The notes beneath the pieces were generated by a model. It was not told where the DNA came from. It saw only the letters and a program-made list of their open reading frames with translations, and searched no databases. Of a DNA stretch of 64,000 bases, positions 25,212-59,400 are shown piece after piece (position 1 is the stretch's first letter; the number at the start of each line of letters is the position of its first letter). Location: positions 615,199 through 679,198 of the forward strand of contig JARGXX010000012.1 of assembly GCA_030374765.1 (NCBI GenBank), written 5' to 3'. The stretch is from Agarophyton chilense. Lineage: Eukaryota; Rhodophyta; Florideophyceae; Gracilariales; Gracilariaceae. The position numbers and the translations under genes were made by a program.

Positions 25212-25216
25212 GCTTC

Positions 25217-27124: not shown

Positions 27125-27244
27125 ACATTCGGCACTGGGGATTCCAGACCGATCCCTCATGTCAGTACTAGCCCAGCTCAAAGTGACTTAGCTTCGCAGT
27201 TCGGGATGGGATGCGGCGCATGCCAACTTGATATGGCCGAATGT
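27125..27244 (-). rRNA. 5S rRNA: 5S ribosomal RNA (right arm)
   Basis: Mirror copy of the 5S gene at 12108-12227, read on the - strand with the same terminal helix and loop signatures. The two genes transcribe toward each other, toward the palindrome centre. Confidence 0.93.
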
Positions 27245-38427: not shown

Positions 38428-38428
38428 G

Positions 38429-38444
38429 TGGTCTCCCGACTCAG
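38429..38444 (+). other. Candidate tRNA primer-binding site
   Basis: TGGTCTCCCGACTCAG lies one base after the LTR end. It starts with TGG, as expected for pairing with the CCA end of a tRNA. The same sequence is found in the left arm (915-930). Confidence 0.55.
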
Positions 38445-38501
38445 AAAAACTGTTAGTGAAAACCATAACTGCTTCGACTCCGAATCTTGGATTTCTTCGG
38501 A

Positions 38502-39416: not shown

Positions 39417-39417
39417 A

Positions 39418-39454
39418 GGTCTTACGTCTGTGTTCTCGGAATGCTAGATAAGTG
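39418..39454 (+). repeat. Left terminal inverted repeat
   Basis: Core GTGTTCTCGGAATGCTAG (39430-39447) is repeated in inverse at 58336-58353. Matching continues outward through TTACGTC and inward through AGTG with about seven mismatches in 37 positions. CTAG-containing motifs follow inside (39456, 39465, 39514). Confidence 0.85.
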
Positions 39455-39677
39455 TGCTAGATAGCTAGTTTTGTAAATAAAAAGCCAAAAAATCTAAGAA
39501 TTTTGCAGATTGCGCTAGTTCGGCACCTGAAAAAAATTTTTTGGAAATAAGAACTCCATGCATCTTAGTGTTTTGACCACTTAATACAGTTTAATCTGCA
39601 TTTGCAGTTTACTGGTCACTTTTGACCGCTCTAGGTGGAGATCCACACCAAGGCAGTCGTCAGTACCTTCTACCTCA
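39455..39677. other. AT-rich subterminal region
   Basis: Non-coding, with several CTAG/CTAGTTT motifs also found near the right end. No gene. Confidence 0.5.
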
Positions 39678-40553: not shown

Positions 40554-40776
40554 GCCCTCTTTCCCGTTATGACTTCCATAACAACACACACTCCTACAAT
40601 TTTAACACAATAAACACCATTCAATATCATAAATCTAACCTCCTTCCCAAAAACCCCTAACGCCCATTCCTCCACAACCATACTCCTTCTCTATTTAATC
40701 ACATCTCCACACTCGCCACCCCCACCACTTCTTCAATTCCAAGCACACCGCACTCCAAACACCTTTTGCAATCAAC

Positions 40777-41600
40777 ATGACCGACTCTCTCACTGCCATC
40801 CCTTGCACCTCCGACCCAGCCGTTATTGTCGGCAGAGGCCGAATCGGCACTTTGCTTCGCAACAACGGCACCCCACAAGATGCTTTTCTCTCAACTCAAG
40901 AATTCATCTCCGCGCAATACATCCCCGACGGCCCCATTTTCTTCCGCGGTAGAAATCATTCACTGGAAGCCGTCATTCAATTCTGCCCTTCCTCCCGCAG
41001 AGAGGATCTGGTCTTCCTTCAGAACGGAAACATTCTCCTCTTCTTTCAACCTATGGGCTCCAAAACTGCACCAAAGCCGTTCTCTTCCTCGCCGTCCCCT
41101 CCCTTAGCGCACCCCCCGAGGACGGTGTCACCCTCCTCAGTCCGCATGGTCTCACAACTGCCACCGGCAAATGGGCTCCCGCACTCGCCAATCGCCTCAG
41201 TACCGCAGGCCTCACTTGTCATGTCGCCGACCAGCCCTCCTTCTCTAAAGCTTACTACGAAAAACTCGTATGGATATCAGCTTTTAATCTCGTCGGCTCC
41301 TCTTATGGCTTTATCACAATGCACGAAGTTGCAGTACAACACCGCACAGTCGTTTCAACCATAATGAAAGAGCTCCTCGCCATCGTCACATCCGAAACAG
41401 GAATCGCCTACAATACAACAGAAACACTCCAAAAACTTCTGGCCCACGGAAAAACACTTACACAGTTCCCCACCTCCTTCTCAGACTTTGAGTTCCGGAA
41501 CGTCTACTTCTACAACGTTTCTAACGCCCAAAAATCCATTGCAAACCGTGACCCCGCCCCTTTCCATACGAACTTCTTGAACGTCCTCCTCAATGGGTAG
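40777..41600 (+). pseudogene. Ketopantoate-reductase-like protein, frameshifted
   Basis: Starts at ATG 40777. The N-terminus has a Rossmann dinucleotide-binding loop (VIVGRGRIGTLL, GxGxxG). The block DLVFLQNG is typical of the PanE/ApbA-like family found in cyanobacteria and algae. At about 41045-41051 the frame shifts by one base; downstream the family pattern resumes (TKAVLFLAV, TATGKWAPAL, YEKLVWISAFNLVG, FEFRNVYFYNVS) to the stop at 41600. Ignoring the shift, the length of about 274 residues suits the family. Such enzymes reduce 2-ketopantoate or related keto acids with NADPH. It looks like captured host cargo in the transposon; a sequencing error or tiny intron at the shift is possible. 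Confidence 0.7.
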
Positions 41601-42015
41601 TACTTCATTCATATACCCCTTCCAATAAAAACAAGTCCTCCTTTCTAAAGCATATGTCCATCTCCTTCGCTGCCTCGATAAAGACTGCTATCCGCATGAC
41701 ACCACTTCAGAATATATGAAACGATATTAAGAATTGCTTCGTACATCACAAATCATCACTACAACCACTCTTCATAAATCTTCCAACTTTGCAATTAAGT
41801 CTGTACCCAATAACCGCTCCTACAGCCTATCAAAGGTTTTCATTCATAACAATTATTCATACTCCGCGACAGAGATACGGCAACAACCTAACAACTACTT
41901 TGATCACTACATATATATATCCACCGATGACCACCCTACTTCATTGCGCTCAACATACTGTATCCAGTCCCTCACAAATACCTTTCTACACAACACTCTC
42001 CTCTCCTTCTCAAGC
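41601..42015. other. No assigned gene
   Basis: C-rich, G-poor intergenic sequence. An open frame runs through it into the next gene but has no ATG before 42016. Confidence 0.5.
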
Positions 42016-43195
42016 ATGCAGCGCTACGAAGCTTCCCTACCCCCTGGTTCTTCTGTCCAATGCTCAGCAGCTGTGGATATTCTTCCACAACGAACGGTTA
42101 TCACCATCGACGAAGTCCTTCAAATCAAACTTCCAACCACCCAGAATGTGGTCGAAGTCAGAGGGTTCCAGAATCATATCACCAACGAGCTCATGGACGA
42201 GATTCGTGACATTTGTACGACCGCCAGGAGGCTCCCCACTCGCAACTCCCTACAGCAGCAAGATACTCTGAAACAACTGTTCAAAGAGCGGTATCATATC
42301 GTTACCTATGTGCAGCGTACAAGGAAGACTAGCAAACCGGAACGCCTTTACTAAGATGTTCAGTTAGCAAACACTCTTCACATCGACCTTAACGTTCACA
42401 ATCACACTAACTACACTCTTCGGAGTTATAGACCCAGCTCTGCAATATACGCTTCCATTCAAATTCAACTCTCTCCTTCTGTTCATTCTCATAACGCTAT
42501 TGAGGTGTCCTATCCAAAGCCTGCTACACATTCTCATAATCGAAGGAGGCGTACAATGTATAAACGCGTTATACGGGTCTCTACAAACTACGCCGTTCAA
42601 TCCATACCAGCGATATACCTGGAAGAAACGAGCCTTTCTGGAATTCGGGGCTCTACTCCTTACTCTACTCATCCCCCTCAACGCCATACTTTTCCTCGTT
42701 CACCGCTTCATTCCAGTCAGCGGTACGCTTTCATCAGACGTGAAGACAAATTGTATCGCCTTCTCCACAGGAAGGGCCGCAGTTGGCGCTTTGGCATATC
42801 TTCTCCAGCTTTTTTCTATATCCTTCTTTCCAGAGTCCTATCTTAACACAAAGTTCACAATGACCCCGGAACCACGGAGAACCTCTTTTATGAACCTCGT
42901 GCTTGGCGCCCTCTCCCACTCTTTTCAACAGGCTTTATTCATATCCAGTCCGGTTGTAACCTTCCAACTACTCGGTATGAGGCTGTCGGCATGCACTTTC
43001 GCTGCACTCTCTTCAACCGCCTTCTCCACCTCTCGCATTGAGGGCCCTGGTGTTCCTATACTGCTTGGTAACACAGTGGATGTCGTAATCTTGATATCTT
43101 CGACAGTTGTCATTCACTATGAGAAAGTGAAAGCAAGTGCTGCTCTCACGCGTTTCAATCCAGTTGTTCAGGAGTTTCTACTGAAAGACGACTGA
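42016..43195 (+). CDS. Putative two-exon membrane protein, unrecognised
   Basis: Two adjoining frames. The first opens at ATG 42016 and runs to 42354 (112 aa, soluble, with a helical C-terminal half). The second has no ATG at its start and runs from about 42367 to 43195. It encodes 5-7 hydrophobic segments, for example LLLFILITLL, FGALLLTLLIPLNAILFLV, ALAYLLQLFSISFF and VVILISSTVVI. A short intron from GTACAAGG (about 42318) to CAGTTAG (42368), with TTTACTAAG as branch region, would join them; this is a proposal from sequence only. The gene ends 81 bp from the convergent dioxygenase frame. No family is recognised. Confidence 0.4.
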
Positions 43196-43276
43196 TCACT
43201 ATTACAAGAAAAGGGGACTACTCCACATATTACCTCAAATTGTACTCTTTATTGTTCAATAGGTAACAGATACTAT

Positions 43277-45559
43277 CTAGTCGTCGTCGTCATCCATTAT
43301 CATACCGCCGTCTTCATAGTCTCCATCTGTGTTAGCCGAGTTGAGACCCATCCCAGGTTCATCATCCTCTTCTTCATACTCCTCTTCCCCACTTTCAACA
43401 ACTTCCATTTTATAATCTTCATCCAACTCCTCATCCTCATCTACCTGGACGTCTTCATCATCACCCTTGTTGGAATCATCCTCTTCGAACTTAGGCCGAA
43501 ATGCTGGTTGCCTATGCACTGCGTCCGGTAGCTTGTACCCATCCGGTATTAAGTACATGTGATACCTCATGCAAACTTCCTTAACCAATGCATCCTCGTA
43601 TCCAGCTCCAGCATGAAACACATCTCCTCTTCCAATAAAAATGGAGTACGGCGGAATCCTGAACTTCCTCACTACCATCGTCCGAGACAGTCGCTTCAAG
43701 CTCCTGTCGTCGGGCACGTACATGTTATGTGACCTCTCACAAACCCAAAGCATAAACGAACTCGCTCCCGACGCCATCATGAAGAACCCTGGAACCTCTC
43801 CGACGTTCTTCTCGGCATCGGTCAGTCCTCGAAAGTCCGTATGTAACACCTGCCTTGGACAGCCCTCCGCCGTACACAGCACTCGCCCCCCTGTTTCAGG
43901 GGCATACATCCTCTTCTTCCCCGACCGGTTGTTGCACAACCGAAGAGCGGCCGCAATCTGTCCAAACCTCGCATCCAACAATGCCCTTTTCCTCACCATT
44001 AAAATGTTGTTCTCGTCCCCCTCCACAGAATCCACAATCCCCACCTTCGTCGTAATGTACCGCCCAACTCCCTTCATTCTATCTCCAGCGTCTCTCTCCT
44101 CACCAGCGTTGATTATAGGGTCCCATTTCTTTCTATTCCCTTCAATCGTCAAGTCCGGTTGGTTCAAGAAATCCGTCTGGAAGAACTCGAGCAAAGTCCC
44201 AGTCACATCCCCATCGAAGTTTACTCCCCTCTTCTTCGCCTCATCCGCCATCCCCTCGTCCGTGGCAAACTCTTCCAGCACACAAAATCCTTTCTCCATC
44301 AGCTCACTTCTCTTAGTCGCGAAGTACTCGCGGGCCAAGTCATCCCTCTCCATTGCTGCCATCCATATCGCCTGCTCTTCATTCACAGGGTGGTCCTTCG
44401 TCGGTAGAATCACCCCAAGAACCGGTTCTTTCGTGGAACCCAGTTCCTTGTGCCTGTTATGAGCAGCACGCCAATAAACCGCATGGTGCACACTTTTCAA
44501 GTCTTCTACCCTCAAGCACTCCGCCCTGTGCTTGTTCCGTAGGTAAATCATCTGCATCCAGAGGTGCTGATGCTTCACTCCATTTTCACCCGCCGGCCAC
44601 CCGCTCGGAAGTGCATTCACCAAGTACACCCACGACATACCCGACCCCCCCGCATACGGTCCCGCCCTCCTCAGCCCCTTCGAAACACCCTCCGGATTAT
44701 TGTCTTCGAAGCCACGCATTTGCATACCTTCCTCCTCTTCGTCCCCTACAAATGCACCCTGCCCCCCATCATCATCCAGTTCATCGTCACTCGATGAGAA
44801 AACATTGAGTACATGTTCCTTCAAGAAGCGCTTCAGCTCTTTCCTGCTCATCTTCTTGAACACATCCACCACGTCAGCCGGTAGTTGAGCCGCAGATGTG
44901 CCCACCGTCTTTCTCCTCTTCCTCTTCCGCTTTAAAGGCTGTTCATACTCGCGTTCATCATCACTAATGACCACAGCCTTTCTCTTCCCCTTTCTCTGTC
45001 TAGGTTCCATCACCATCTCACCCGCAGCATCCAGCCCGCGCTCAGTACCTTTTCTAGTTCGTGTGATGCGTCTGGGAACCACGGGTTCCTGGTGGGGTAC
45101 TGACTCCCCAGCACTAGACGAAGGAACATTCACAGAAGGTGGCACCTCCACCACATCCTTCTCCGCACTTGGGGACGCCAGACTCACTTTCAGACCGCCT
45201 TCAATCCGCCTTTGTGCGGTTTTCATCCTCTTCGACACCAACCCCGGCCACAACCGCTTCGGACCACTGAGTTCCATCTTCGCTGTTTGCATGCAAAGGT
45301 ACTCCCTTAAAGACACCTCGTTCTTTCCCATCACAATTGTGCTGTCTAGAACCTTCGCTGCCGTCAGACCCTTCTCCTTTCCCGCCCTTTCGCATAGTTG
45401 GAACATTCCTATGGCGCATTGGAAGAACTGCTTTCGCGTCTCTTGGAAACGTCCCATATTCCCCGTAGAACCCATCCTCACCCTCACATGTAGCTGCAAA
45501 CAACGGATTGCGAAACGGAATATTTCGTCTTCGAGTCCTAACAACAAGTCACTCGACAC
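43277..45559 (-). CDS. 2-oxoglutarate/Fe(II) dioxygenase-like domain (3' part of composite gene)
   Basis: 760 codons open on the - strand without an ATG at the start, so the translation shown by the frame probably continues an upstream exon or frame. Residues about 150-290 are basic and acidic, low-complexity, with nuclear-localisation-like runs (KRKRKRRK). The C-terminal half carries the double-stranded beta-helix signature: His573-x-Asp575 in VLHTDFRG, then FHAGAGYED (His649) and RYHMYLIP (Arg665). These are the iron and 2-oxoglutarate ligands of phytanoyl-CoA/TET-JBP-type dioxygenases. The tail is strongly acidic. Possible substrates are modified DNA or chromatin, judged only from the neighbours. 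The exact subfamily is not settled. Confidence 0.7.
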   Translation of the reverse strand: MSSDLLLGLEDEIFRFAIRCLQLHVRVRMGSTGNMGRFQETRKQFFQCAIGMFQLCERAGKEKGLTAAKVLDSTIVMGKNEVSLREYLCMQTAKMELSGPKRLWPGLVSKRMKTAQRRIEGGLKVSLASPSAEKDVVEVPPSVNVPSSSAGESVPHQEPVVPRRITRTRKGTERGLDAAGEMVMEPRQRKGKRKAVVISDDEREYEQPLKRKRKRRKTVGTSAAQLPADVVDVFKKMSRKELKRFLKEHVLNVFSSSDDELDDDGGQGAFVGDEEEEGMQMRGFEDNNPEGVSKGLRRAGPYAGGSGMSWVYLVNALPSGWPAGENGVKHQHLWMQMIYLRNKHRAECLRVEDLKSVHHAVYWRAAHNRHKELGSTKEPVLGVILPTKDHPVNEEQAIWMAAMERDDLAREYFATKRSELMEKGFCVLEEFATDEGMADEAKKRGVNFDGDVTGTLLEFFQTDFLNQPDLTIEGNRKKWDPIINAGEERDAGDRMKGVGRYITTKVGIVDSVEGDENNILMVRKRALLDARFGQIAAALRLCNNRSGKKRMYAPETGGRVLCTAEGCPRQVLHTDFRGLTDAEKNVGEVPGFFMMASGASSFMLWVCERSHNMYVPDDRSLKRLSRTMVVRKFRIPPYSIFIGRGDVFHAGAGYEDALVKEVCMRYHMYLIPDGYKLPDAVHRQPAFRPKFEEDDSNKGDDEDVQVDEDEELDEDYKMEVVESGEEEYEEEDDEPGMGLNSANTDGDYEDGGMIMDDDDD

Positions 45560-45682
45560 ATGCGCAAGCGTTAGAACTGGACCCTCCTTTCATACGTTCT
45601 CAAAGAACTCCAGGAGACCTTCGCTCCTGACGAATTTCAACCCAAGAGTCGCATAGCGATTCAAGTGGCGCAAGCTGAAGAT

Positions 45683-46600
45683 TCATATAGCTTTGCTCGT
45701 CTTCAGCGCCCCAGCTATCCGTGTCGGAGTAAGGTCAGCCAACTTGGTTCTATTGTCGTCAATCAAGTTGCAAATGAAGGACACTGTCGAATGAACCTTG
45801 TCGGCGAAACTCATCTTCAACACATTTGAACTCATTTCATTGAGTACATTACCAAGACCGAGCACTTCGTTCAGCGATAAAGGCTTCCGGTCCTTGCGTC
45901 TCCAAAGAACGACATCAAGAGACCGCACAATTTCCAACCACTTTCTCCCTTCAGAGGGATCATTCTTCAGATCTCGCAGAACCAAGGCGCGGTGATGACC
46001 GTCAATGAGTATGACAGGCACCACTACCCTCCCATTGTGAACAATTTCACTGAAATCTAATTCCATTCCCCCGAAGATGGCAACAGCAATCGACCCTGCC
46101 GACGCAAGCCAGCCAAACGTTTTGCACTTTGCCATCGTCGCCGCCTTGTGTTCCGCATTCACACTTCTGACAGTCTTCTCGGGGATTTGTATGTCATCTA
46201 TGTCCACAATCAAGCGGCACTGGTCATAGTCTGAAACAGAGATCTTCTTTTCCACGACAGTCCTATCCACTTCCTGCGAAGGAACGGCATCGCCGTCATC
46301 GAACAACTCCAACTCGGGACCGGTGTGCAAATCCCCGCGTACATTCACCGCTGACCCCACCTCCACAACATCTTCATCAGAATCATCCTCTATGGTCACC
46401 CTCTTTTTCGGCTTGACGGGTTGCTTCATGGCCGGCGGCACTGTTGTTGGCTGTGCCCTCTTCCCCCTCAAAGGCGTAGCAGACTCCTTCGAGGGGGTTG
46501 CGCTTTTGGGAGTCTCCGGCCGAGGAGGCCCTGGAGTCAGCACAGAGGAGACGCATGTCATCATCGAGGTATCCCATGCGTATATACCTGCCGACACCAT
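45683..46600 (-). CDS. ParB-like domain (middle part of composite gene)
   Basis: First ATG at 46600, but the frame is open a little upstream without one. The first half is proline/serine/lysine-rich (PRPETPKSATPSK). The second half has a ParB/sulfiredoxin-type core: VPVILIDGHHRALVLRDL, with the GHHR signature and preceding beta strands (IQIPEKTVRSVNAEHKA). ParB-type domains bind DNA, CTP or act as nucleases. The frame ends in TGA and, after 41 further codons and a second TGA, continues in the same frame into the dioxygenase part, so both probably belong to one gene. Confidence 0.6.
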   Translation of the reverse strand: MVSAGIYAWDTSMMTCVSSVLTPGPPRPETPKSATPSKESATPLRGKRAQPTTVPPAMKQPVKPKKRVTIEDDSDEDVVEVGSAVNVRGDLHTGPELELFDDGDAVPSQEVDRTVVEKKISVSDYDQCRLIVDIDDIQIPEKTVRSVNAEHKAATMAKCKTFGWLASAGSIAVAIFGGMELDFSEIVHNGRVVVPVILIDGHHRALVLRDLKNDPSEGRKWLEIVRSLDVVLWRRKDRKPLSLNEVLGLGNVLNEMSSNVLKMSFADKVHSTVSFICNLIDDNRTKLADLTPTRIAGALKTSKAI

Positions 46601-46642
46601 ATCCTTCAGCAACTCCGGCGGCTCCTCTGCTCCCTTGAAAGA

Positions 46643-46963
46643 TTACGGATACTTGTAGTTGATCCCCTCCTTAATTTCAGTCCTCCAGATGGCCACCAAG
46701 TCCTCTCCCGGCTTCGCAGACTCGCGCAACGAATGGCCATGCATCGCTCTGCAAAGCGCCTTCCCGGCCGCTCCACTGCCCCCAACACCTCTCAACTCCG
46801 CAGTGCCAACCATAGTACCCTTCTTCTTCCCTGTCCCATCCGCCAGGAACAACGCCACCCTATCCCCACCAGCCAGATTGTTTCCCGATGTAGCTTTTCG
46901 CGGAGTGGCGCGTGGAGTACCCCGCGGAGTACCCCTCGCTTTCGCTTTGCCTCGAGTCATCAT
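46643..46963 (-). CDS. Basic N-terminal part of the composite ParB/dioxygenase gene
   Basis: 106 codons from ATG 46963 (two consecutive ATGs). It begins with a lysine/arginine tail containing a repeated RGTPRGTPRATPRK pattern, similar in composition to chromatin-binding tails. It ends in KEGINYKYP and a TAA. The next open stretch on the - strand continues in the same frame, so this is the likely 5' end of the composite gene. The start lies about 265 bp from the palindrome array, facing away from the methyltransferase gene, so the array sits in a shared divergent promoter region. Confidence 0.5.
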   Translation of the reverse strand: MMTRGKAKARGTPRGTPRATPRKATSGNNLAGGDRVALFLADGTGKKKGTMVGTAELRGVGGSGAAGKALCRAMHGHSLRESAKPGEDLVAIWRTEIKEGINYKYP

Positions 46964-47227
46964 TTGAATCGGATCGTAGTCGGTCGAGGTTGCAAATGGT
47001 CGCAGAGCGCTTTGAGCCTTTTATGGTATACAGACTAAGACGTATTAGATCGAGCTCCTTTGGTGGCGACTATCCGGAACACTCCCGAGAGCAGTTCGTT
47101 GCAATCAGCCTGAACTACGTCCGCTTAGTTTCAAACTCAAGAAACTCCTTGTCTCTTTCCATCACAAACACGCCTATTGGCTTGGTAGGCGATACAAGAA
47201 AATAAAATTAAAAAATTAAAAATATCC

Positions 47228-48209
47228 TGACGGCCGACAGAGGTGCGCGCCGACTTCATCGGGGGTCCCCGATGAAGTCCCCGCGCACCTCTGTCGGCCG
47301 ACATAATACATATAATTTTGTAATTTTTGGAATGCTCAGGTGTACACGGTGCACTCTGTCGGCCGACAGAGGTGCGCTCCGACTTCATCGGGACCCCCGA
47401 TGAAGTCCCCGCGCACCTCTGTCAGCCGACATATACATATAAATTTTGTCAGGTGTACACCGACATAATACATATAATTCTATAATTTTTGGAACGCCCA
47501 GGTGTACAAGGTGCACTCTGTCGGCCGACATAATACATATAATTTTGTAATTTTTGGAACGCCCAGGTGTACACGGTGCCTTCTGTCGGCCGACAGAGGT
47601 GCGCAAGGACTTCATCGGGACCCCCGATGAAGTCGGAGCGCACATCTGTTGGCCGACAGTCGACTAATAACTCAGAAACGCATCATGCGTGATGTTACGG
47701 CGTATTTGTCGGCAGACAATTCATCAACATGTTGTAGGGACACCATTCGGGCCATTTGTGGGCCGCCAGGAGTGTGCTGCGACTTCATCGGTGGACCGAT
47801 GAAGTCGCAGGGCACCCCTGTCGGCCGACAAATACGCCATAACATCACGCATGATGCGTTTCTGAGATGTTGGTAGACTGTCGGCCGACAGAGGTGCGCT
47901 CCGACTTCATCGAGGGTCCCGATGAAGTCCCCGTACACCTCTGTCGGCCGACAGAGTGCACCGTGTACACCTGAGCGTTCCAAAAATTACAAAATTATAT
48001 GTATTATGTCGGCCGACAGAGGTGCGCACGGACTTCATCGGGACCCCCGATGAAGTCGGAGCGCACCTCTCTCGGCCGACAGAGTGCACCGTGTACACCT
48101 GGGCGTTCCAAAAACTACAAAATTATATGTATTATGTCGGCCGACAGAGGTGCGCGGGGACTTCATCGGGACCCCCGATGAAGTCGGAGCGCACCTCTGA
48201 CGGCCGACA
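47228..48209. repeat. Array of nested palindromes between divergent genes
   Basis: Seven near-perfect palindromes of about 75 bp: 47228-47303, 47357-47431, 47584-47658, 47757-47830, 47879-47953, 48007-48081, 48135-48209. Each has outer arms TGTCGGCCGACA (itself a palindrome), then GAGGTGCGC, then GACTTCATCGGG and its complement. Spacers of about 53 bp (TAATACATATAATTTTGTAA ... GGTGCACTC) separate them, forward in the left half and inverted in the right half, so the whole array is itself inverted around about 47.77 kb. Lone 12-bp palindromes occur at 47519 and (one mismatch) 47707. Each unit could fold into a long hairpin. Confidence 0.95.
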
Positions 48210-48382
48210 GAATGCAACCAGGATAGCTGCGAAGTCGTTCCGCAACAACCGTTCTTCCGTGCGCGCTCCTCAACCGTACTCACAATCTTTCCGTACCCAC
48301 CCGCACCCACCCGCACCCGCTGCTCTCTTTCACTCAGGCTCTTGTGACGACCGCCCGTGAGGTTGTTTGAACATGTACATAA

Positions 48383-51300
48383 ATGGCTCCAGAACCCACG
48401 AGAACTTCTTCATCGCCTGCGGCAGACACCTTCGAAATGGGTAAACTGTTTGGTACGGGGGATGAAGTTATCAGGGCGTGTCTGGATTGGCGTGATCGTT
48501 ACGCATTAACGAGGCGGGAGGAAGATGAGCCGCGAAAAGTGGGGCACACTGCATTCATCGATTTCGCAATTGCCAATCGCCACATCCTACCGGAGACCGC
48601 GAAGTTTTTTTATACTCTCCTAGGTCCCGACCACACCAATTACACAGAAGATGAGCTCCGAGTTGTAGGAATGAGGGGCTCGAACTGTCAGAATTATTTC
48701 TCGGCGAGGTTGCTGGATATAAGGGATGGGGACCCAGATAGGCGCGTGAGGGACTTTTGGAACGCGTACGAGGCGGTGGAGTTCAAGGGCATCCCGAAGA
48801 ATATCACTTTGACAGAGTTCTTCAAAGGTCTGGATACAACCCGAAAGAAGGCGAGCAAAAGCCGGGCTCCATTCGCGACCGACTTCCCGACAATGTTCCA
48901 GAGGTTGCTGTTCCTCATTTGTATTCAGTCGGTCTCTATGGAGAAGAGAAGAGTCTCCCGAAAGCGAAGAAAGCGGGACAGAACCTACGATACGCCATTT
49001 TCGAAGGTGGCGATTTATTACAAACCAGGAGCTCAGCGTGTGGGCTTTGGTGTGCAGCTCGTCAATAACGCGTGGGACAGCTTCGCCCAGTATTTGGGAT
49101 TCCCTGGCGTGGAATTAATGGGTTTGCCCTTTATCCATCTACGATATTCTGATATGCAGTTCCAGGCAATCGGAAACAGAAGGGATGGGTTCTCTCACAA
49201 GGACATGGCCCAACGACTCCTTCCTGGTAGAAACCGTACTTTATTGGAGGAGGATGTCGTCCCATGGGCGTGGAACCTGCCGGAGTACGTTGACACTCCA
49301 CTTCGTATGTTGGCCAAAGAGTTTCTCGCTGACCTGCACAAAGTGGTGGTGAATGAGCAGCTTTACTCTATATCAGCTCCGGAAAGATGGGACGTTCTAA
49401 AACCGTTTACATACACTTTGCCTAAAGTGTTGGCGGAGAGATTCGACTGCTTCTCGAACTCTCTTATCTCTACCATCTCGGAATACATATCGCCACTAAA
49501 GCTGCGAGGGAGTGTGGAGGTGGAAGTGGTGGCTGCGACAAAGGCGGAACCTACTATGGTTATGGAAGAAGACGAGATAGAAGTTGTACCCCCTGAGAAA
49601 GATTCAGAGGCTCCGGCGGTGGAGGGTGGAGAGGGAGTGGAGGGTGGAACCGGGAATGAAGAAGAGAACATGGGTGTTGGTCAGCATTCTTCCACAGCTG
49701 GACCAAGGTCGGTCGAATCTGAGTCGGTGGATATTCTGCCGCCTCACGACCTTACCTCTCTGGATGATATAATGTCTCTCCAAAAGTGCGAGTCGGAGAT
49801 GGATAAGCACTGTCGAATGTACAATTGTACTTTCGAGAACCTGGTGGAGATTGACGAGACATTGCGCAGCAATGGGGTCTCTCCGATAGGGAAAGTGCAG
49901 TTGGTTCTCACGGACCCGCCGTATAATATACGTGCGAAGAAGAACAGGAAAAACAGCTGGTACGACGTTCTTAACCGGCAAGACATGGTGAAGACGACGA
50001 AGCTCATCTCTAAACTTCTGCGTCCGGGAGGGCATTTCGTTATATTCTGCGCGATTGAGCAGGTGAACGAATGGAAAGAAGTGTTGGGTCGAATTGGTGC
50101 AAAGGATGAGAATGGACAGAAGAGCAGGTCGTTTGTCGTAGACAAGGTCCAGCTGCACTTCATTCGCTCTCAAGGCAATCCGATGCGTAATCCCGGGCTT
50201 AGTTCGTGCTCCCTGTGTCCCGGAACAGAGTACGCCATTCATGGAGTTCGCAGCGGGTTGTCCTACGCCGAACAACATGGCATGGTGAACTATGAGAACT
50301 TCAGCTATGTACCATCGCGATATCCGGGTTACCATAGCGTGATTGACCAAGTGCCTCCCATGTCGAATGGTGAAACACTTCTATGGAGAAGGAAGAATGC
50401 CAAAGGAGCAGTTACGTATCAGAAAGTGCGGGCGGAACAGAAGTCACGCGCTTTGCTGAAGGAGGTCATTAGCAGGTTTTCTCAGCCGGGAGACATAGTG
50501 GTGGACCTCTTCGCCGGATCATTTTCAACGGCCATGGCATGCATGGAACTGGAAAAGCACCGTCAGTTTCTAGGGTGTGAGCCAGATCCGCAGTGCTTTG
50601 CTCATGCGAAGCACGCCGCTACAGTGAAATTTGCGTCATGCATGCGGAATAACGAGACGGACATTCATATAACGCAAGATGTTCGGAACGCTGTGACTCG
50701 AGTGACATGCTTGTTTCCGGACGTCGTCATAAAGCGTTCGAAGTCCTGGAAAACACCTACCGGATTTCCCGAGCATCAGATGTTTCCACCCCATATCGTG
50801 GATTTTCTCTCCTCCATGAGGCAGGATAAGAATATATCGGAGATTGGGCGACGGCAGGCGCTGTATGAGTGGCCAAGAAGTTTTCAAGGAAAGATGTCAC
50901 TGTTGGATTGGAATGCTATTCTGGCAGTGGAGGCGACAGTATGTGGTTGTCGGATTGCAAAGTCGACGATAAGGCACCCGAATGCTGGAGTTGGTGTGTA
51001 CACAACACGCCGGGTGATACAAGGTGAGACTGTTTGTTACTTTTACGGGACTTTGGTGTACCATAATCTTTCAAAGCGGAAGGAAGTTCATAAGGCATAC
51101 GGAGGGGGGCTATTGAAAGCGACTGCTGATCGTTTTCGGCAGTACGCGATGGAGATAAGCGTCCGAGGGGAAGTGTTTCACAAGCTACCAGGAAGAATTA
51201 GTGGGGTGTCTCTTATTCCGGTGTGGATTGTCCCTGCTCCATTTTGCTTGGGGGGAACAATTAACGACCCCAAGTATGTGGAAGGGGATAGGGACAGGGA

Positions 51301-51514
51301 TGCGGTTGAAGACGGGTTAATGAGACGCCGAACTGCAAATGTTCGGGTCATCAGAACTCCGGGGACGGGGCGGACCCCATTTCAGTTGAGAGATTATAGA
51401 TTGCTTTCTGTGCAAGCAATTCGATATATAGAAATAGGAGAGGAGCTGTTCGCGGATTATTGGACAGAGTATATCTGGAGTATGAATAACACGCCAGTCA
51501 TATTAATCGATTAA
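48383..51514 (+). CDS. DPPY-type DNA methyltransferase fused to SET domain
   Basis: 1043 aa from ATG 48383 (context AAATGG), no intron. Residues 1-390 are an unrecognised N-terminal region. A low-complexity acidic linker follows (about 392-450). Next comes an amino-methyltransferase: TDPPYN (510-515, catalytic motif IV) before DLFAGSFSTAMA (708-719, SAM-binding motif I). This order is that of beta-class bacterial N6-adenine/N4-cytosine enzymes. The C-terminus from about 856 to 1043 is a SET-like lysine methyltransferase domain: AGVGVYTTRRVIQGE, GTINDP in place of the NHS motif, and IGEELFADYW at the end. Predicted role: methylate DNA and a histone from one polypeptide. It is transcribed away from the palindrome array. 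Confidence 0.85.
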   Translation: MAPEPTRTSSSPAADTFEMGKLFGTGDEVIRACLDWRDRYALTRREEDEPRKVGHTAFIDFAIANRHILPETAKFFYTLLGPDHTNYTEDELRVVGMRGSNCQNYFSARLLDIRDGDPDRRVRDFWNAYEAVEFKGIPKNITLTEFFKGLDTTRKKASKSRAPFATDFPTMFQRLLFLICIQSVSMEKRRVSRKRRKRDRTYDTPFSKVAIYYKPGAQRVGFGVQLVNNAWDSFAQYLGFPGVELMGLPFIHLRYSDMQFQAIGNRRDGFSHKDMAQRLLPGRNRTLLEEDVVPWAWNLPEYVDTPLRMLAKEFLADLHKVVVNEQLYSISAPERWDVLKPFTYTLPKVLAERFDCFSNSLISTISEYISPLKLRGSVEVEVVAATKAEPTMVMEEDEIEVVPPEKDSEAPAVEGGEGVEGGTGNEEENMGVGQHSSTAGPRSVESESVDILPPHDLTSLDDIMSLQKCESEMDKHCRMYNCTFENLVEIDETLRSNGVSPIGKVQLVLTDPPYNIRAKKNRKNSWYDVLNRQDMVKTTKLISKLLRPGGHFVIFCAIEQVNEWKEVLGRIGAKDENGQKSRSFVVDKVQLHFIRSQGNPMRNPGLSSCSLCPGTEYAIHGVRSGLSYAEQHGMVNYENFSYVPSRYPGYHSVIDQVPPMSNGETLLWRRKNAKGAVTYQKVRAEQKSRALLKEVISRFSQPGDIVVDLFAGSFSTAMACMELEKHRQFLGCEPDPQCFAHAKHAATVKFASCMRNNETDIHITQDVRNAVTRVTCLFPDVVIKRSKSWKTPTGFPEHQMFPPHIVDFLSSMRQDKNISEIGRRQALYEWPRSFQGKMSLLDWNAILAVEATVCGCRIAKSTIRHPNAGVGVYTTRRVIQGETVCYFYGTLVYHNLSKRKEVHKAYGGGLLKATADRFRQYAMEISVRGEVFHKLPGRISGVSLIPVWIVPAPFCLGGTINDPKYVEGDRDRDAVEDGLMRRRTANVRVIRTPGTGRTPFQLRDYRLLSVQAIRYIEIGEELFADYWTEYIWSMNNTPVILID

Positions 51515-51683
51515 AAGTGCATCGCTTTTGTTACTTTACTTCATTGTAGTGTACCAGATATTGTGGGCTTTTACTATGTTTGTCGCTACATATAACGTCA
51601 AAGCGTGACGTAGTACATATGCTAAAGGAAAGTCATGTACACCGAAGGAGAATACTTTCCCAATATGTGGTGCGTTCGAGCGC

Positions 51684-51696
51684 ATATTTAAAATAT
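51684..51696 (+). promoter_or_regulatory. TATA-like element
   Basis: ATATTTAAAATAT about 145 bp upstream of the ATG at 51839, in the 325-bp gap after the methyltransferase gene. It is the only clear AT-rich promoter-like site there. Confidence 0.35.
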
Positions 51697-51838
51697 CTGA
51701 AAAGTTTGGGGGTTTTCTGAGAACACGAAAAGGGTGGAGGTATATTTTTGGAAGCAGAATGTTTCGAAGCTTCTCTCCCATCCATCGCATTGCAACGCGT
51801 GGAAGACCATACCACGATCGCTCTCTCTCTCTTCAACC

Positions 51839-54472
51839 ATGGCTCCGAAGCGCAAATCGAGAAGCGAGAACACTAGCGGGCGCGGTACAAAATCACGGCG
51901 GCATGGAGGGGATGCGGAGGGCGGAAGGGACAAGGGGCGTAGGCTCCAGGGCGCGAGTGGAGAGAAGGGAGGCGTGCGCCTGAGAGGTAGATCAAGGGAA
52001 GATGGTGGGGAAGGAGAGGCGAGTGGGGGCAAAGGAAAGGCTGTTCGCGCAAAGGAGACGGTGACGGAGGAGAGTGCGGAGCAAATCACGTCGCCTACGG
52101 GAGAGATGGTGCGGAGCGGCGATGGAAAACGGGATGGCGTGCGAAGCAACCGCACGCGTGTACCTAGAAGTGGATTGCGGGGGAGGGCGAGCAGAGCTCC
52201 AGGGAGGACAAGGAGAGGGGATGCATCCGAGCGGACTCTAAGTGCTGTACTCACGTCTTCAGCTGATGTGGAGCCGGTAAATCCATGCTCTGCACCTGAA
52301 GGAGGTGAAGAGATTCCGAATGACAGGACGAAGGGGCGTAAGGAGGGAGAGAGAATGATCGGAGAACGTGGATCTCGCCTCAGAGGCGTTGAAGAAGCAG
52401 GGGCATCGTTTACGGGTATGAGGAAAGAGGACGGTGATGATGAGATACAGAAAGGGAGAATAGAGAGTAGCCGTGGTGGGGAGGGTAGAATAGGTGGACC
52501 CAGTAGTGGTCTAATCGCGGGCGCAAGAGTCGTTCGAGAGAGAACAGAAGGAGAGAGTGTTGGAGTTACCGCGGGGGAACAGGCGGAAAGATGGGAGGGG
52601 GCGAACTTGGATTACGTGGAAGAAAGGAGAGAGCGTGCAAGGGAAAGAATGGGGAGTGTTCGAGTTACAGGAAGAAGAGCGATAGACGAAAGGGAAAGCA
52701 GAGAAGTGCATGTGAGTGAGGGGGGGAGAAGGGGGTTTGCTGGAGGGAGAACACGTGGTTCAGGGGAGGAAGGCGATGGAAGAGCAGCAGTTCTTTCTCA
52801 TCAGGGAGAAGATGTCGAGCGTTTGCCACCGAGGAGAGGGGTGGGTTTGGGAGTTGAAGGGTTTGAGGTGAACGCAAGGCGAAGGACGCCGGAAGGTATG
52901 CGAGAAAGGAGAAACATTGTATTTACAAGGAATAATGATAACGGGGAGAATGCGAATTCAAATGTCGTGGAGAACGCCGTCCGTATAGTGGAAGATGAAG
53001 CAAGTGATGATGACATAGTTTTGTTGCCGCGGTCGATGCTAATTGAGAAGATGAATGTGTTGAAGGGACAAATGGGACGTATGAAGGAAGACAGGTACAG
53101 TGTGATGGTGAGTTTGAAAATGACCCAAACGGAGCTGGATCGGGCGAGGGAGGAAATGAAGCAGCAGAATGTGCTGATTGAGAGTTTGAGGGAGGCGTTG
53201 AAAGGTAGAATCGCTGGGGAAGGGAGGGGGGAGGGAGGCGTGACGCGGCGACGAAAGTATGACATTGGAGTGCAGGAATTCTTTTATGGATTTGCACGTC
53301 GTGTGTATGATAGGATTCTTCATTATGCAAAACTGGAGGCATCGGAACTTTGCTTCGACACCGAGAATGTGGGTCGAAGCTGGAAAAATAGAAGTGAGGC
53401 GGTTGGGGAGAGTAGGGAGGAAAGCATGTTTGTGGTGGGAGAGAAGGAAATGGTTCCGAGATGTCCATTTGAGGTTGCATATGAGATGAGACCGTATACG
53501 CCGTCGACAGAGGGCGGGAGCCATTTGTTGTTGAAGCACGTGGTAGAGACTGAGTTAATGGGAGAGAAATGGGAGTCGATAAGGGAAGCGGGGAGGAGAG
53601 AGGAGTGTGTGAAAAATGTAAGTGCGGATAGGTGCTTGAGACAGAGGATGAAGCAGACATTGAGCGATGTGGTTGGGGTGCGGAAGCGAGCTGCGCTTGA
53701 TAAGCTGTTTTCTATGCTTGGATATGATTTGATCGCGAAACGAGCTAAGGTGACTGAAGGGACGGAGCTTTGGGCGGAGTTGAAGAAGCAGATTGAGGAG
53801 GCGCAGGAGACGTTGATGGGGTCGGGGGAGGATGGGAGAGGTAAGCTGTGTGCGTGGAGAACGAGTGCGATTGAAGATATTACTTATTCTGCATCGAAGG
53901 TGTCTGAGAACTTGGAGGACTTTGGTGAGGCAGATATGTATTTTCGAAATCAAGTGTCGTTGAAAGTGTTGGAGGAGTTTATGGGCTACGCGGTAGAGAG
54001 TCACAGAAATGGAGAAAGGCAGTATGTGGATGGGACGGTGATGCATCTTGCGCGACTTGATGCATGGATTGGATGTGTGGTGACCACGATGGATAGAGAC
54101 GTTGGGCGGGGAGGCCAAAGGCAACTTTTGTTCTCGACGCTGTTTGGGAGGTTTCTGCCACTGGCTGTTGAGGACATATTGAGGGTTGCCTGGAACATGG
54201 TGAAGGATGAGTATTCTGAGGAGTTTGAGATTGATGGATTCTGTGGAGGGCATCGTAGAGATGTGAGTGGGAATAAGGAGAGAATCGCGACGGTTGGGCT
54301 ATGGATACCGTCGAGAGAGAAAATCTATCTGGCGATAAGGGAGGAGTTTTTCATGGAGAATCTCACGAGAAGACTTGGAGCGGTGTTAGATTGCTATATA
54401 GCGTCATGTGGACCAGAAGAACCACGGTTCAAGCGCTTAGCGTTGGGGAGTAGGCAAGGAGTGGGAGAGTGA
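51839..54472 (+). CDS. 877-aa basic coiled-coil protein, unrecognised
   Basis: Starts at ATG 51839 in a good context (ACCATGG); the open frame extends upstream without ATG. Residues 1-390 are disordered and rich in R, G, E and K (MAPKRKSR start, then many RGG/GRG-like pieces), typical of nucleic-acid-binding tails. About 400-460 is a coiled coil (MLIEKMNVLKGQMGRMKED, then TQTELDRAREEMKQQN). The rest (about 475-877) looks folded and mainly helical, with no recognised motif. It ends 87 bp from the convergent transposase. In many large DNA transposons a second DNA-binding protein assists the transposase; that role is a guess here. Confidence 0.65.
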   Translation: MAPKRKSRSENTSGRGTKSRRHGGDAEGGRDKGRRLQGASGEKGGVRLRGRSREDGGEGEASGGKGKAVRAKETVTEESAEQITSPTGEMVRSGDGKRDGVRSNRTRVPRSGLRGRASRAPGRTRRGDASERTLSAVLTSSADVEPVNPCSAPEGGEEIPNDRTKGRKEGERMIGERGSRLRGVEEAGASFTGMRKEDGDDEIQKGRIESSRGGEGRIGGPSSGLIAGARVVRERTEGESVGVTAGEQAERWEGANLDYVEERRERARERMGSVRVTGRRAIDERESREVHVSEGGRRGFAGGRTRGSGEEGDGRAAVLSHQGEDVERLPPRRGVGLGVEGFEVNARRRTPEGMRERRNIVFTRNNDNGENANSNVVENAVRIVEDEASDDDIVLLPRSMLIEKMNVLKGQMGRMKEDRYSVMVSLKMTQTELDRAREEMKQQNVLIESLREALKGRIAGEGRGEGGVTRRRKYDIGVQEFFYGFARRVYDRILHYAKLEASELCFDTENVGRSWKNRSEAVGESREESMFVVGEKEMVPRCPFEVAYEMRPYTPSTEGGSHLLLKHVVETELMGEKWESIREAGRREECVKNVSADRCLRQRMKQTLSDVVGVRKRAALDKLFSMLGYDLIAKRAKVTEGTELWAELKKQIEEAQETLMGSGEDGRGKLCAWRTSAIEDITYSASKVSENLEDFGEADMYFRNQVSLKVLEEFMGYAVESHRNGERQYVDGTVMHLARLDAWIGCVVTTMDRDVGRGGQRQLLFSTLFGRFLPLAVEDILRVAWNMVKDEYSEEFEIDGFCGGHRRDVSGNKERIATVGLWIPSREKIYLAIREEFFMENLTRRLGAVLDCYIASCGPEEPRFKRLALGSRQGVGE

Positions 54473-54559
54473 TAAGGTACGGGGGGATAAGGGGGTAAGG
54501 AGGTGCAGCAAGATGGGGGTCGGCTATGGAAGAAAAGCAGCGGTGCCTATTTTATTGGA

Positions 54560-57500
54560 TCATGTGCCTTGGGAGGTATTATTATGGGTGCCACCCAGTG
54601 GTGGTGTTGTGCCACCCAGTGGTGGTGTTGTGCCACCAGTGGTGGTTTTGGAGAAGTAGGGCTTGGCAGTTGGGTCTCGGTAGAATCTGTTCAGGTAAAA
54701 TCGATGGAAGCGCCAGTGCAATCGAGGGGTGAAGGGGGGTGCGGGGTAGTTTTGGCGAAGTACATGAACGGGGCCGAGAATGGATGAGGATGGTACGAGG
54801 CCGAACCAGGGGGAGACGTTGTCGGAGTTGGAAGTGTTTGAGATAGGAAGGGGGTGGGCGGTGTTGTTATGTTCGTCGTCTGTTGCCCATCGGAGGCAGA
54901 TGCAATTGAGAGAGACATCGACTTGATCCTGGGGTGGAACGAGTTCGAGGAACTGAACGAAGGCGAACTCGTTATGAGTGGAAGGGGAAGAAGGGGTGGT
55001 GAAGCGAAGAAGAGAGTTGAGCTTGCAGACCCAGGCGGTGGGAGTGGGGTTGGAGAAGCTGGAACCGGCAACGAGGATGTTGGAGAACTTTGGGGTTTTA
55101 GAGGGACCGAAGGAGGGAGCAGCGAAGATACGTTGAATGAGTGGGAGAGGGGGATCTTTGACGGCGAGCTCGTTTCGATCGGCGATGTAGTCGTCTAGGG
55201 TTGGGGTGAAGCCGCCGACGACGTATGCGGAATTGACGAATGTGAGACGGGTTTGGCGGAGAGTGGGGGAGTCCTGGTTGAGAGCTAGTGTTTCGAGTGT
55301 GAGTGTGACGAAGGAGGGGAGTGCGAGGGTTCCAATCTGTGAGATGATGGCGATAGTGTCTGGGGAGAAGAGGTCCTGAAGGGAAGAGATTGTTGAGTGG
55401 GGGTTTGCTCGAAGGAATTTGTGAGCGGTGATGAGATCGGAAAAGGAGGTGTGCTTGCCATCACGGACGAAACCTGGTTTGCGGGCTTGGAAGGGAGGAG
55501 GAGGGGCATGGGAGGATGAGGTGACGGAAGGATCAGCGGAGAGAGAAATCCAATTGTTGACGGCATCGGAGCGTTCGATGGCACGGATGGTTTCGTTGTG
55601 CGCGGTGGGTCTGCGCTTGGAGGTTCGGGAGTAATGTGCTTTGAAGAGGGTATGGGCTTGTTCGAAGATGCCTGCATCGTTGAAGTGGAGACCCTCAAAG
55701 CGTCGAATGTCGTCTACGATGTGATCGAGGAGGTGGAATTTGAGGGTGCCAAGGTTGGAGGTATGGTATGGACCGAGAACATCGACAGCTCTGTGCTTGA
55801 AGGAATGGATTTGGGAGGCGAGTTTGGCAAGACGAGAAGTGGTCCATTCGGGGACGGAGTTGTAGCACATGGAGGTGAGGAGGAGGTCTGTGTACTTGGA
55901 GAAGACGGTTGTGATGGGAGAGGAATTGGCTTCGTCACAGCAGCGGTCGAAGAAGGCGCCGATGAAGGGGAAGACCATGTCGAGGGCGCGGTAGTCTTTT
56001 GCTTCTAGCATGCCGCGGACGCCGTCAGTTGTGAAGAAGCCGTTGAGGGACTGCCCGCTTTCGGAAGTAGAGAAGTCGATGTGGAGGCCGGTAGCTGGGG
56101 AATGATTTTCGATGGCGGTGAGGATGAAGTTGGAGTGCTTGAGGATGGAGGTGCGGACGGAGTGGAAGGAACGGCGGGAGTTTGTGGAGCTGATGGTGGT
56201 GAAGAGGTGTTCTGATCTGAGACGTTCGATGGCGACGAGCTTGATGAGTTTGGAAACGCCGAGGTAGAAGTTGTGGAGGGGTTCGAAGGGGAAGATGTTG
56301 TATGGGGTGAGGAGGGGGGTGATGTTGAAAAGGGGGTAAGACTCGAAGAGGGAGGGGTATTTTGCGAGGGAGAGGGAGTGGAGTGCTTGGAGAGCTTGTT
56401 GCTTGAAGTTGCGCGAGACTCTTGGCTTGCGGGCGAGGAGAGCTGCTTCGGAGTCCTTGAGGAGGGAGAAGTGTTTGTTGCGGGCTGCAAGGGTGAGAGG
56501 AAGAGATCGAGGGGGATGGACGTGAGAGTGTTGGTGGAGTTGTGAGCGAGGGACAGAGCATCTTTGGCAGGGGTGCTGGGGGCGGGTGCCGTGGGAGATG
56601 GCGAGAATATCCTTTGCCTCGGGAATGTCTGCGCAGTAGCTGGCGATGATGGGGTGGCATTGACGAAGAACGCCGTCTGCGTCGCGGAAGGGGAAACCGG
56701 GGAGGGCGGAAGAGAAGAGAGGTTGAAGGAGGGAGGAGATGGTCTGCTGTATGAGTTCCATTTTTGTTTCGCGGGGGATGGAGGAGGAATGAGTGATGAT
56801 ATCTGCATCTGGAGAAGAAGTGATTGGGGTGAAGGAGGTGGGAAGATAGCCCAGGAGTGTGAGATTGTCGGAGATGCATTTGCGGCGAAAGGAGTCGGAG
56901 AAGTTGAGAAGGGTGATGTGGAGTGGGTAGGAGGTGATGGAAGAAGATTTGAGAGAGGTAGAGGACTTGTCGGAGTAGATTTGTACGAGGCCGATGAAGG
57001 AGTCGATACCGGTGGAGTGAGGGAGATGCCAGACGATGTTATCTTTTGTGGACTGCATGATGGCGGTCTTGAGTGCGGGGACGACTTTTGAGCCGAGGGT
57101 GGCTGCCATGGGGTGTGCGAAGGCGGGGGAGCCGGAGGCGGATGTTTGGGAGATGGGGTGGAAAAAGGTGTTCTTGAAGTGTGCGAGGGCGAGCTGTTGT
57201 TTGAGGACATGGATTGCGTCTTTCTGGAAGAGGGTTGCGGAGAAGCGTTTGTGGGGATCGAATATCGTGGAGGGGGCGAAACCAATGGACCTGATTCTCT
57301 GGTGGAAGAGGTCTGCCTGGAGCTCGAGGCATTGCTTTGCGGAGGAGACTGAGTTCCGGAATGTTGATTCGGAGAAGTGGGGATCATTAAGGAGAGTGAT
57401 GAGTTCGTCAGCCTTTCGTTGTCCAAGCTTGGAGGCGATGGAGGAGATGTAGAGGACCATTTTCTCCAGGTGGGGGTTGTCGAGGGGGGGAGTGGAAGGA

Positions 57501-57845
57501 GGGAGGGGGGGAGAGAGCGAGAGAGGAGGGGGAACCGAGAGGTGCAGTGGCGACGTGGATGGCGTCCTGGGTGTGGAGGGAGAGAGAGAGCTGGTCTTGG
57601 AGGTAGGAGTCATGGTGTGCGAGAGGGACGTTGTCGGAAGGGCGATGTGAGGGAGGAGGATGAGGGGGGAGTTGTGAGGTGGACTTGTGGCGTTTTGTGC
57701 GGGGGGGGAAGTTGGGTTCATTTCGGCCAGGGGAGAGGAAGCGCTTGTTGGCGGAGAGGCGATGAGGGCACCTTCTCTGGTGCCGCTGGAGGGCGGGGAT
57801 TTCTCGGGCGAAGAAGGAGTAACTGTTGAAGCAGCAGGAAGGCAT
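54560..57845 (-). CDS. Tnp2/Plavaka-like DDE transposase (CACTA-type), two-frame gene
   Basis: The main frame ends at 54560 and is open for over 1100 codons. Its core resembles Tnp2/Plavaka transposases: a conserved Asp in CADIPEAKDI, a zinc pair in PCQRCSVPRSQL (about 90 bp downstream), then LFNITPLLTPYNIFPFEPLHNFYLGVSK (given in parts: PLLTPYNIFP, PLHNFYLGV) with the His of the active site. The likely start is ATG 57845 in another frame, which encodes a zinc-finger-like N-terminus (MPSCCFNSY ... ALQRHQRRC) before a proline/serine-rich linker. A small intron or frame change between about 57650 and 57450 must join them. The C-terminus has repeated GGTTPPL units. Confidence 0.65.
54590..54648. 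repeat. Short tandem repeat in transposase 3' end
   Basis: Three units of about 21 bp built on GCCACCCAGTGGTGGTGTTGT, encoding the repeated GGTTPPL residues at the transposase C-terminus. Confidence 0.85.
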
Positions 57846-57967
57846 GGTGGGTGGAGGAGAGGTGGTGGGAAAGAAGTTGGTAGGGGGCGTAGACGGAGAG
57901 AGAGTATGGCGCACACAGGGCACGTGACAGGGGAGGGCGGTGGAGAATAATATAGAATGCAAGGCAC

Positions 57968-58328
57968 GTGAGGTCTGCCAGGTCGGGCTGCGATTCTATT
58001 GCGATTGATATGGATGGTACTAAATGTTCAATTTCTATTTTGAGGTCCATTTTGGGACCGGTTGTTTTTACTAATCTGTCAATCTAGAGCGCACAAAGAT
58101 TGAATCTGCTCCTGCACCACTTCTCTACTTTTACCTTTAAACTGCGGCGACAGAAAGATTCACGCTAGTTTTACCTCCATCAAAACTAGAAAAACTGCAG
58201 ATATGTGCTAGTTTTCCTTCCCATACAAACTAGCACTAATGAACAAATGAAAATATTCCGAAATTAACACTTCCAAATTTGGATAAATTCACGGGTTTTT
58301 CGGTCATTTCAATTCGTCCTTTTTTGAC
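57968..58328. other. Right subterminal region
   Basis: Non-coding, AT-rich toward the end, with at least four CTAGTTT/AAACTAG motifs. No gene seen. Confidence 0.5.
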
Positions 58329-58365
58329 CACTGAACTAGCATTCCGAGAACACTGACGTAACGCC
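58329..58365 (-). repeat. Right terminal inverted repeat
   Basis: Reverse complement begins GGCGTTACGTCAGTG and continues with the same core as the left end. Inside lie subterminal GTGCTAGTTT-type motifs in both orientations at about 58164, 58184, 58205 and 58227, typical of transposase-binding subterminal repeats. Confidence 0.85.
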
Positions 58366-59400
58366 TACAAAAGAGAGAAAAGAACCGATCCAGTCGCGAA
58401 ACAGCAAAAGTTAAGAACCACATCAAGCTGTTAAGGATTGGAATAAATGATCTAGTCTTTGATGGAAAACCCCCCATTCTCGTCATCGAGTTCCTTACTC
58501 GTATCGTTGTCGACGTGGATACCCTAGAAATAAGTCAACCTCAGGCTTAGGTTTCATTTCCCCACACCTTGGTAGGTTTTGCGTCAGAGAAATATCGTTC
58601 TGTCTGCTCATCCTTAATAGCCACCGACGGAGGCGTAACCTCCTGGCCCGAGGCATTATGTTACTTAATGCAAAGCTATGTGACGTCCAACGCGGATCGA
58701 CAGTTTATCCTGGATCTTCGTAATGTGACCCAGAAACCTAGTGAAGGAGAAGCAGAATACAGCTCAAGGCTTAACAAACCGCCACTCGCTCTGGAAACTT
58801 TCATTCAACTGAAGACAATGTTACGTTGTTCATCGATGTGCTAGATCCCAATATCAAGTCTCTAGGGGCTCGATTTCCAGAGAAGAATGCTAGAGCCTCA
58901 TTTCTGAACTTGGTTGATTTTGTTTAAGTTGAAGGTGATGCCGTGAGAGCTCGCGGAAACACGCATTACACCACAAAACTTGGTTTATCGAAGACAGAGA
59001 AGCGACGCAAACAAACCGCGAAGTCCGCTCACAATGTATAACATCAGGAATATCCTGTAGACTCCCGAGAGTCCTTTTTCAGTAGGTATGATGACCCACG
59101 GCAGCACAACGCTGTCTATTTGATAGATTATTGGGAGTCATAAGTGCCGACAGACGAGTTACCTCATTTGTAGACACAGAATGAAGAAGCCGCAATGGCT
59201 ATGGAGGGCACACGCCCAGTATATTGCGCATAAAGGGTTTCCCCAGAAGGAGGGTTCAAGAATAGCAAACCCGGATGGTTGGGAACTCGGGTTGCATACC
59301 GATCCCAGCCAATGACAGCACCCAGCCGAAAGGCATTACTATGCTACCTGTTTTACGGTCGTCATCATCATCTGTCCGCAGATTGAACACTTCCTGATAA
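58366..59400 (+). pseudogene. gag: Ty3/gypsy gag, capsid part and degenerate zinc knuckle
   Basis: The frame resuming after the insertion reads LVFDGKPPILVIEFL, a gag capsid start. It continues with TSWPEALCYLMQSYV and FIDVLDPNIKSLG, matching the older gag at about 10.4-10.6 kb. Near 59340 CYLFYGRHHHLSAD is a CCHC knuckle that has lost its second cysteine. Stops at several places break the frame. Confidence 0.7.

Follow-up and report, generated by a model that had tools for sequence, protein, structure and literature searches.

A Plavaka-like element and its surroundings

The window (the whole stretch of 64,000 nt that we have analysed) contains at 39417-58366 an element of 18.95 kb, bounded by imperfect terminal inverted repeats of 38 nt whose local end-to-end alignment scored 70, against 33 at most in 500 control pairs. 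The features identified within it are collected in Table 1. They include a transposase of the Plavaka family, an array of hairpin-forming repeats that sits between two divergent ORFs (of 309 and 1043 aa) and, within the longer of these ORFs, a DNA amino-methyltransferase of bacterial type followed by a SET-like C terminus. The initial annotation had proposed that this ORF belongs to a transposon, and the transposase together with the terminal inverted repeats bears this out.

Table 1. Features of the element, in coordinates of the window.
Feature	Coordinates	Strand	Basis or remark
Left terminal inverted repeat	39417..39454	+	87% complementarity with 58329-58366 across 38 nt
Two overlapping open frames	40777..41597	+	Second frame weakly like the ketopantoate reductase C-terminal family
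760-aa ORF	43277..45559	-	HTD...FHAG...RYH spacing like 2-oxoglutarate dioxygenases, by eye only
309-aa ORF	45683..46612	-	GHHRALVL stretch ParB-like by eye only
Array of inverted hairpin-forming repeats	47204..48216		Many units ~128 nt apart, with TGTCGGCCGACA cores
1043-aa ORF	48383..51514	+	N-terminal ~470 aa without known family, beta-class DNA amino-methyltransferase, SET-like C terminus
N6_N4_Mtase domain, residues 505-742	49895..50608	+	PF01555, PHROG_67, alignment with six phage and plasmid enzymes
SET-like domain, residues 869-1026	50987..51460	+	PF00856 at cut-off on the cut-out part; own SET profile
912-aa ORF	51734..54472	+	No family found (scanned from 51836, 878 aa)
Plavaka-family transposase, 1135-aa ORF	54560..57967	-	PF18759, E 4.4e-22, 79.2 bits (cut-off 26.3)
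Right terminal inverted repeat	58329..58366	-	Pair of 39417-39454

The termini of the element (AGGTCTTACG and CGTAACGCCT, i.e., AGG..CCT) match neither the PlavakaA nor the PlavakaB ends, which are TGT..ACA or CATCA..TGATG (PMC12730594). The trinucleotide CTA found at 39413-39415 and 58365-58367 is a possible target duplication, but it would shift the ends and could be due to chance. Because the termini differ from those of both lineages, and a target duplication of 2-3 bp is not established, we have named the element Plavaka-like; judged by its ends it is neither PlavakaA nor PlavakaB. The left 200 nt contain four copies of the motif GCTAG/CTAGC, the right 301 nt another four and the other ~18.4 kb of the element also four, and there are 31 in the flanks, which make up ~45 kb; this is reminiscent of the subterminal repeats of CACTA-type elements. 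The surroundings point to a eukaryotic nuclear contig, because the flanks gave Pfam matches to a kinase (Pkinase, E 3e-35), a reverse transcriptase (RVT_1, E 1.6e-11) and a DDE transposase (DDE_Tnp_4, E 1.2e-7). The left flank is included in a 16.4-kb inverted duplication (1-16379 and 22978-39358, 97.8% identical), both arms of which carry a 5S rRNA gene.

Several other ORFs of the element have resemblances that we do not take as identifications. For the 760-aa ORF neither a TET/JBP nor any other dioxygenase identity is claimed, as Pfam, NCBIfam, PHROGs and PDB gave no significant match, and no TET/JBP family appeared among the Pfam matches of the main ORFs of the element. Likewise, we do not claim the 309-aa ORF as a ParB, since no ParB family was found in the Pfam, NCBIfam and PHROGs scans; the ten rows listed for a ParB profile of our own (built on three sequences, of which one is probably no ParB) were all shuffles, and the 309-aa protein itself was absent from them. 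Searches of the viral_contigs collection with back-translated peptides, which reach close relatives only, confirmed no relatives of the transposase, of the ParB-like part of the 309-aa ORF or of the protein part encoded by 43277-44266. The second of the two overlapping frames at 40777-41597 matched ApbA_C below the cut-off (E 0.019), and this gene looks frame-broken.

A methyltransferase and a SET-like part in a single frame

The 1043-aa ORF lies where it had been placed and is uninterrupted: it starts with ATG, has no internal stops and is immediately preceded by an in-frame TAA at 48380. Given the base composition, a run of 1043 codons without a stop has a probability of ~8e-25. The composition by codon position is broadly similar across the N-terminal, methyltransferase, linker and SET stretches, and therefore, to judge from the DNA, we have a single gene here, so that at this level the two domains do lie on the same polypeptide, as had been claimed. 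These data bear on another reading, that of a fusion formed by accident in a single decaying copy, where a captured methyltransferase gene happened to be joined to a SET gene and the product has not been maintained. A single copy was seen, another cargo gene (40777-41597) has the broken appearance mentioned above, and no relative of the 1043-aa protein or of its SET part was confirmed in viral_contigs (again with back-translated peptides, reaching close relatives only), all of which would fit such an accident. Long decay is nevertheless argued against by the stop-free length and the broadly uniform coding composition, and we regard this reading as distinctly unlikely. The presence of a beta-class amino-methyltransferase and a SET-like domain in one frame, within a DNA transposon in a eukaryotic setting, is supported.

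The assignment of the first domain to the beta-class amino-methyltransferases held up well. In the Pfam scan of the whole protein, PF01555 matched residues 505-742 with E 2.4e-18 and 67.3 bits (cut-off 26.7), and the methyltransferase half also matched PHROG_67 (E 1.3e-26). Motif IV (DPPYN) lies upstream of motif I (DLFAGSFSTAMA, residues 708-719), which is the beta-class order. Both the order and the position of motif I were correct in the initial annotation, and only the start of DPPYN has to be moved, from residue 510 to 511 (511-515). Motif I includes the stretch FAGSFST, in which F replaces the second G of the SAM-binding loop, a replacement also found in the phage BS46 (AGSFST). The top PDB matches (phmmer against PDB sequences) were adenine methyltransferases of the DpnA type (E 2.8e-10) and CcrM (E 1.5e-5). 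Since DPPY is the usual form of the motif in N6-adenine enzymes and SPPY the usual one in N4-cytosine enzymes (PMC8885841), the product would more likely be N6-methyladenine than N4-methylcytosine, as a rule of thumb.

Relatives of this half are found in phages and plasmids. The whole protein was matched (tblastn) by 47 of 50,697 phage records at E <= 1e-3, and residues 440-778 by 144 of 72,556 plasmid records at E <= 0.01. The best-scoring ORF on the phage, plasmid and viral-contig loci reached 52.1 bits (E 2e-16, calculated for this small set alone), and identity to six chosen phage and plasmid relatives was 23-29% in the alignment. The comparison covered phage, plasmid and viral-contig sequences, and a phage or plasmid origin is a candidate only.

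For the C terminus, a SET-like domain had been claimed from about residue 856. A match is indeed present (residues 869-1026), although its strength is weak. PF00856 scored below its cut-off of 22.4 bits when the whole protein was scanned (18.2 bits, E 0.0034) and just at it (22.4 bits, E 1.7e-4) when residues 840-1043 were scanned alone, so that profile searches of the two halves gave a clear match for the methyltransferase and one only at or below the cut-off for the SET part. A profile of our own, built from 87 SET proteins (80 from GTDB and 7 from viral contigs), gave 14.6 bits on the whole protein and 19.9 bits on the SET part, the latter as the sum of two pieces, the best of which scored 10.1; the best of 2000 shuffles reached 6.4 bits, with a best piece of 6.0. 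Two further comparisons speak against the assignment. The SET part had no PDB match below E 0.39 (phmmer), although the top two rows are the SET enzyme KMT2C, and when its profile was compared with that of nine viral SETs, the alignment extended over no more than 30 columns (P 0.0012, probability 19%). Among plasmids, 14 of 72,556 records were matched, all at E 2 or worse and, where annotated, under other names, and the SET family was found in none of 5 viral records.

The motifs of the family are partly preserved. GVG (869-871) and EELFADY (1020-1026) correspond to the GxG and ELxxDY-type motifs, in the right order and aligned with the SET family by MAFFT. GTINDP is present at 958-963, as had been noted, with ND (961-962) in the place where the NH of the NHSC motif would be expected; this registration is a reading by eye, because MAFFT left the stretch uncleanly placed, with a gap there. 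An insert of ~20 residues, also read by eye, follows directly after ND, and the C-terminal cysteines common to the SET relatives are absent. SET activity is doubtful because the NH pair reads ND, and the SET-like half may be inactive, given this replacement and a match at or below the Pfam cut-off. SET domains with other NH replacements exist. Our SET relatives were all retrieved through a FINHSC-type pattern, and for this reason the constancy of NH among them is partly the result of selection and a poor guide to how variable this pair is in the family at large.

Without an alignment, AlphaFold2 produced no usable model of the SET part (pLDDT 32.3). When 42 SET relatives were supplied, pLDDT rose to 57.9 and a partial SET-like core appeared, with values under 50 in 92 of the 194 modelled residues, among them residues 78-133 of the modelled part. 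Foldseek found 36 matches at E <= 0.001 for this second model, to SET structures (TM by query 0.33-0.45). The SET fold of the model is not independent, because SET sequences were the input of the alignment, which favoured such a core, and we take it as compatible with a SET fold and not as a proof.

In a rival reading, the DNA methyltransferase would be active and the SET-like part would be a catalytically dead remnant or a docking module for other proteins, so that only DNA would be marked. The score at the cut-off, the change of NH to ND with its insert, the missing cysteines and the low-confidence region of the model speak for it. Against it, GVG and EELFADY have been kept, coding composition is maintained to the end of the frame, and the NH of the relatives is constant partly through the way in which they were retrieved. 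We hold this reading possible, if somewhat less than probable.

Known relatives and a proposed role

The closest parallel to the methyltransferase half in a eukaryote is the N4CMT of bdelloid rotifers, a bacterial N4C-methyltransferase fused to a chromodomain (PMC8885841). In both cases a eukaryotic genome encodes a permuted (beta) PF01555 amino-methyltransferase of bacterial type that is joined to a chromatin domain; the two proteins differ in the motif (SPPY, of the N4C form, against DPPYN here) and in the partner, a chromodomain reader in the rotifers and a SET-like putative writer here (PMC8885841). N4CMT, moreover, is described as captured by the rotifers and acting on transposons (PMC8885841), whereas the gene described here sits inside one. 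Since the bdelloid enzyme, which belongs to the same Pfam family, is stated in that account to lack eukaryotic homologs (PMC8885841), another case in eukaryotes, independent of the first, would be of importance on its own.

Precedents for the cargo come from other transposons. Fungal DNA transposons, those of the Plavaka family among them, have captured TET/JBP genes (PMC12730594); these transposons share with this element a transposase of the Plavaka family and an epigenetic enzyme as cargo and differ from it in their ends. Genes for SET histone methyltransferases are carried by HarbingerS and MuDR elements (cited in PMC12730594), which are likewise DNA transposons; they belong to other transposase superfamilies, and the passage dealing with them mentions no fusion to a DNA methyltransferase. 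The phage and plasmid enzymes of PHROG_67 resemble the methyltransferase half in sequence, though only at the low identities given above, and no SET gene is annotated within the stretches of ~2.2 kb examined at their loci. One plasmid relative (L006) has a ParB_N match under the cut-off (23.7 bits, cut-off 26.3) and another (L004) has no ParB match; the 1043-aa protein contains no ParB family either. What is known, then, are transposons with TET/JBP or SET genes and the fusion of N4CMT with a chromodomain. The fusion of a methyltransferase with a SET-like domain may be new, as among the titles and abstract openings listed in searches of open-access literature none reports one in a transposon.

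Methylation of DNA or of histones by the 1043-aa protein is an activity that we infer from its domains. The reading that we put forward, and to which we give about even weight for and against, is that of a captured epigenetic cargo. The transposon would have acquired both parts, the DNA methyltransferase of bacterial type and the SET-like domain, within one protein. The methyltransferase half would methylate the DNA of the element itself, most likely to N6-methyladenine, and the SET-like half would either methylate lysine in a chromatin protein nearby or act as a module for docking to chromatin. Acting together, both halves would give the element control over its chromatin state, by which it could escape the silencing by the host or choose its timing. 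Against this reading, chromatin roles could not be confirmed for the genes next to the ORF. The hairpin array beside the gene would be the likeliest candidate for a local target or a site of regulation, a guess made from its position. Single epigenetic enzymes are a known transposon cargo, while here one polypeptide could write marks on both DNA and histones; if it does write both, it would offer a direct test of how transposons counter silencing or make use of it, and would be a natural means of coupling the two marks.

GC skew around the hairpin array

The GC skew of the forward strand is negative to the left of the hairpin array and positive to the right, in genes of both orientations alike. 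At fourfold degenerate G/C sites, the share of G in 1-kb bins rightwards from 48.5 kb is 0.62, 0.69, 0.75, 0.70, 0.83, 0.91, 0.97, 0.98 and 0.97, with 0.75 in the last; leftwards from 45.5 kb the values are 0.37, 0.19, 0.16, 0.37, 0.35 and 0.08, a less regular gradient. Over the element as a whole (39417-58366) the rise is nearly linear. In a logistic fit to 1318 such sites from eight gene segments, the log-odds of G increased by 0.31 per kb (z 19); after adding a term for the side of the array the slope kept a z of 5.8, and the side term itself had one of 0.02. All these z values are inflated, because sites within one gene are not independent, and for this reason, and because only one element is involved, we treat the gradient as a strong lead.

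Transcription was rejected as the cause of the skew because its sign does not follow the strand of the gene (z 1.9 for gene strand, 0.97 with the side term), and cytosine deamination is unlikely because the A/T fourfold sites show no effect (z 0.53). The gradient suggests replication from a centre or, as another possibility, repeated resection of the ends with C-biased fill-in. It hints that the element may have a private phase of replication or repair.

Phage and plasmid enzymes of the beta-class type can mark DNA or control initiation. The methyltransferase could likewise serve DNA maintenance and not silencing, by marking the DNA of the element or controlling initiation while the element replicates or exists outside the chromosome, a phase for which the hairpin array would be the centre. 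The zero point of the fitted skew, near 47.66 kb, falls within the array, the flanking DNA has hardly any skew (0.00 and -0.02), as have the kinase ORFs of both arms and a gag-like ORF used as flank controls (fourfold skew 0.08, -0.08 and -0.07), and the relatives of the methyltransferase in phages and plasmids would suit this role. However, in a two-segment fit the switch comes at 48.43 kb, just outside the array, the z values are inflated as stated, two other ORFs of the flanks are also skewed (-0.35 and -0.32), and no replication gene appeared in the family scans of the element. Plavaka-type elements are, besides, generally regarded as cut-and-paste elements, which also counts against this reading, and we consider it unlikely. 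A further reading, in which an element with its own replicative or end-processing phase around the central array would use the fused DNA-and-lysine methyltransferase to mark the DNA and chromatin of its copies as one system of self-recognition, strikes us as very improbable. Should the gradient recur in other copies, one would have to ask whether an element supposed to move by cut-and-paste exists for part of the time as a replicon.

As to the array itself, comparison with RNA families gave seven matches, all of them under the gathering scores and looking like generic hairpins, so that an RNA-family identity was rejected. Its units are nested palindromes from which long hairpins can form; folding of a single 128-nt stretch gave z -8.5.
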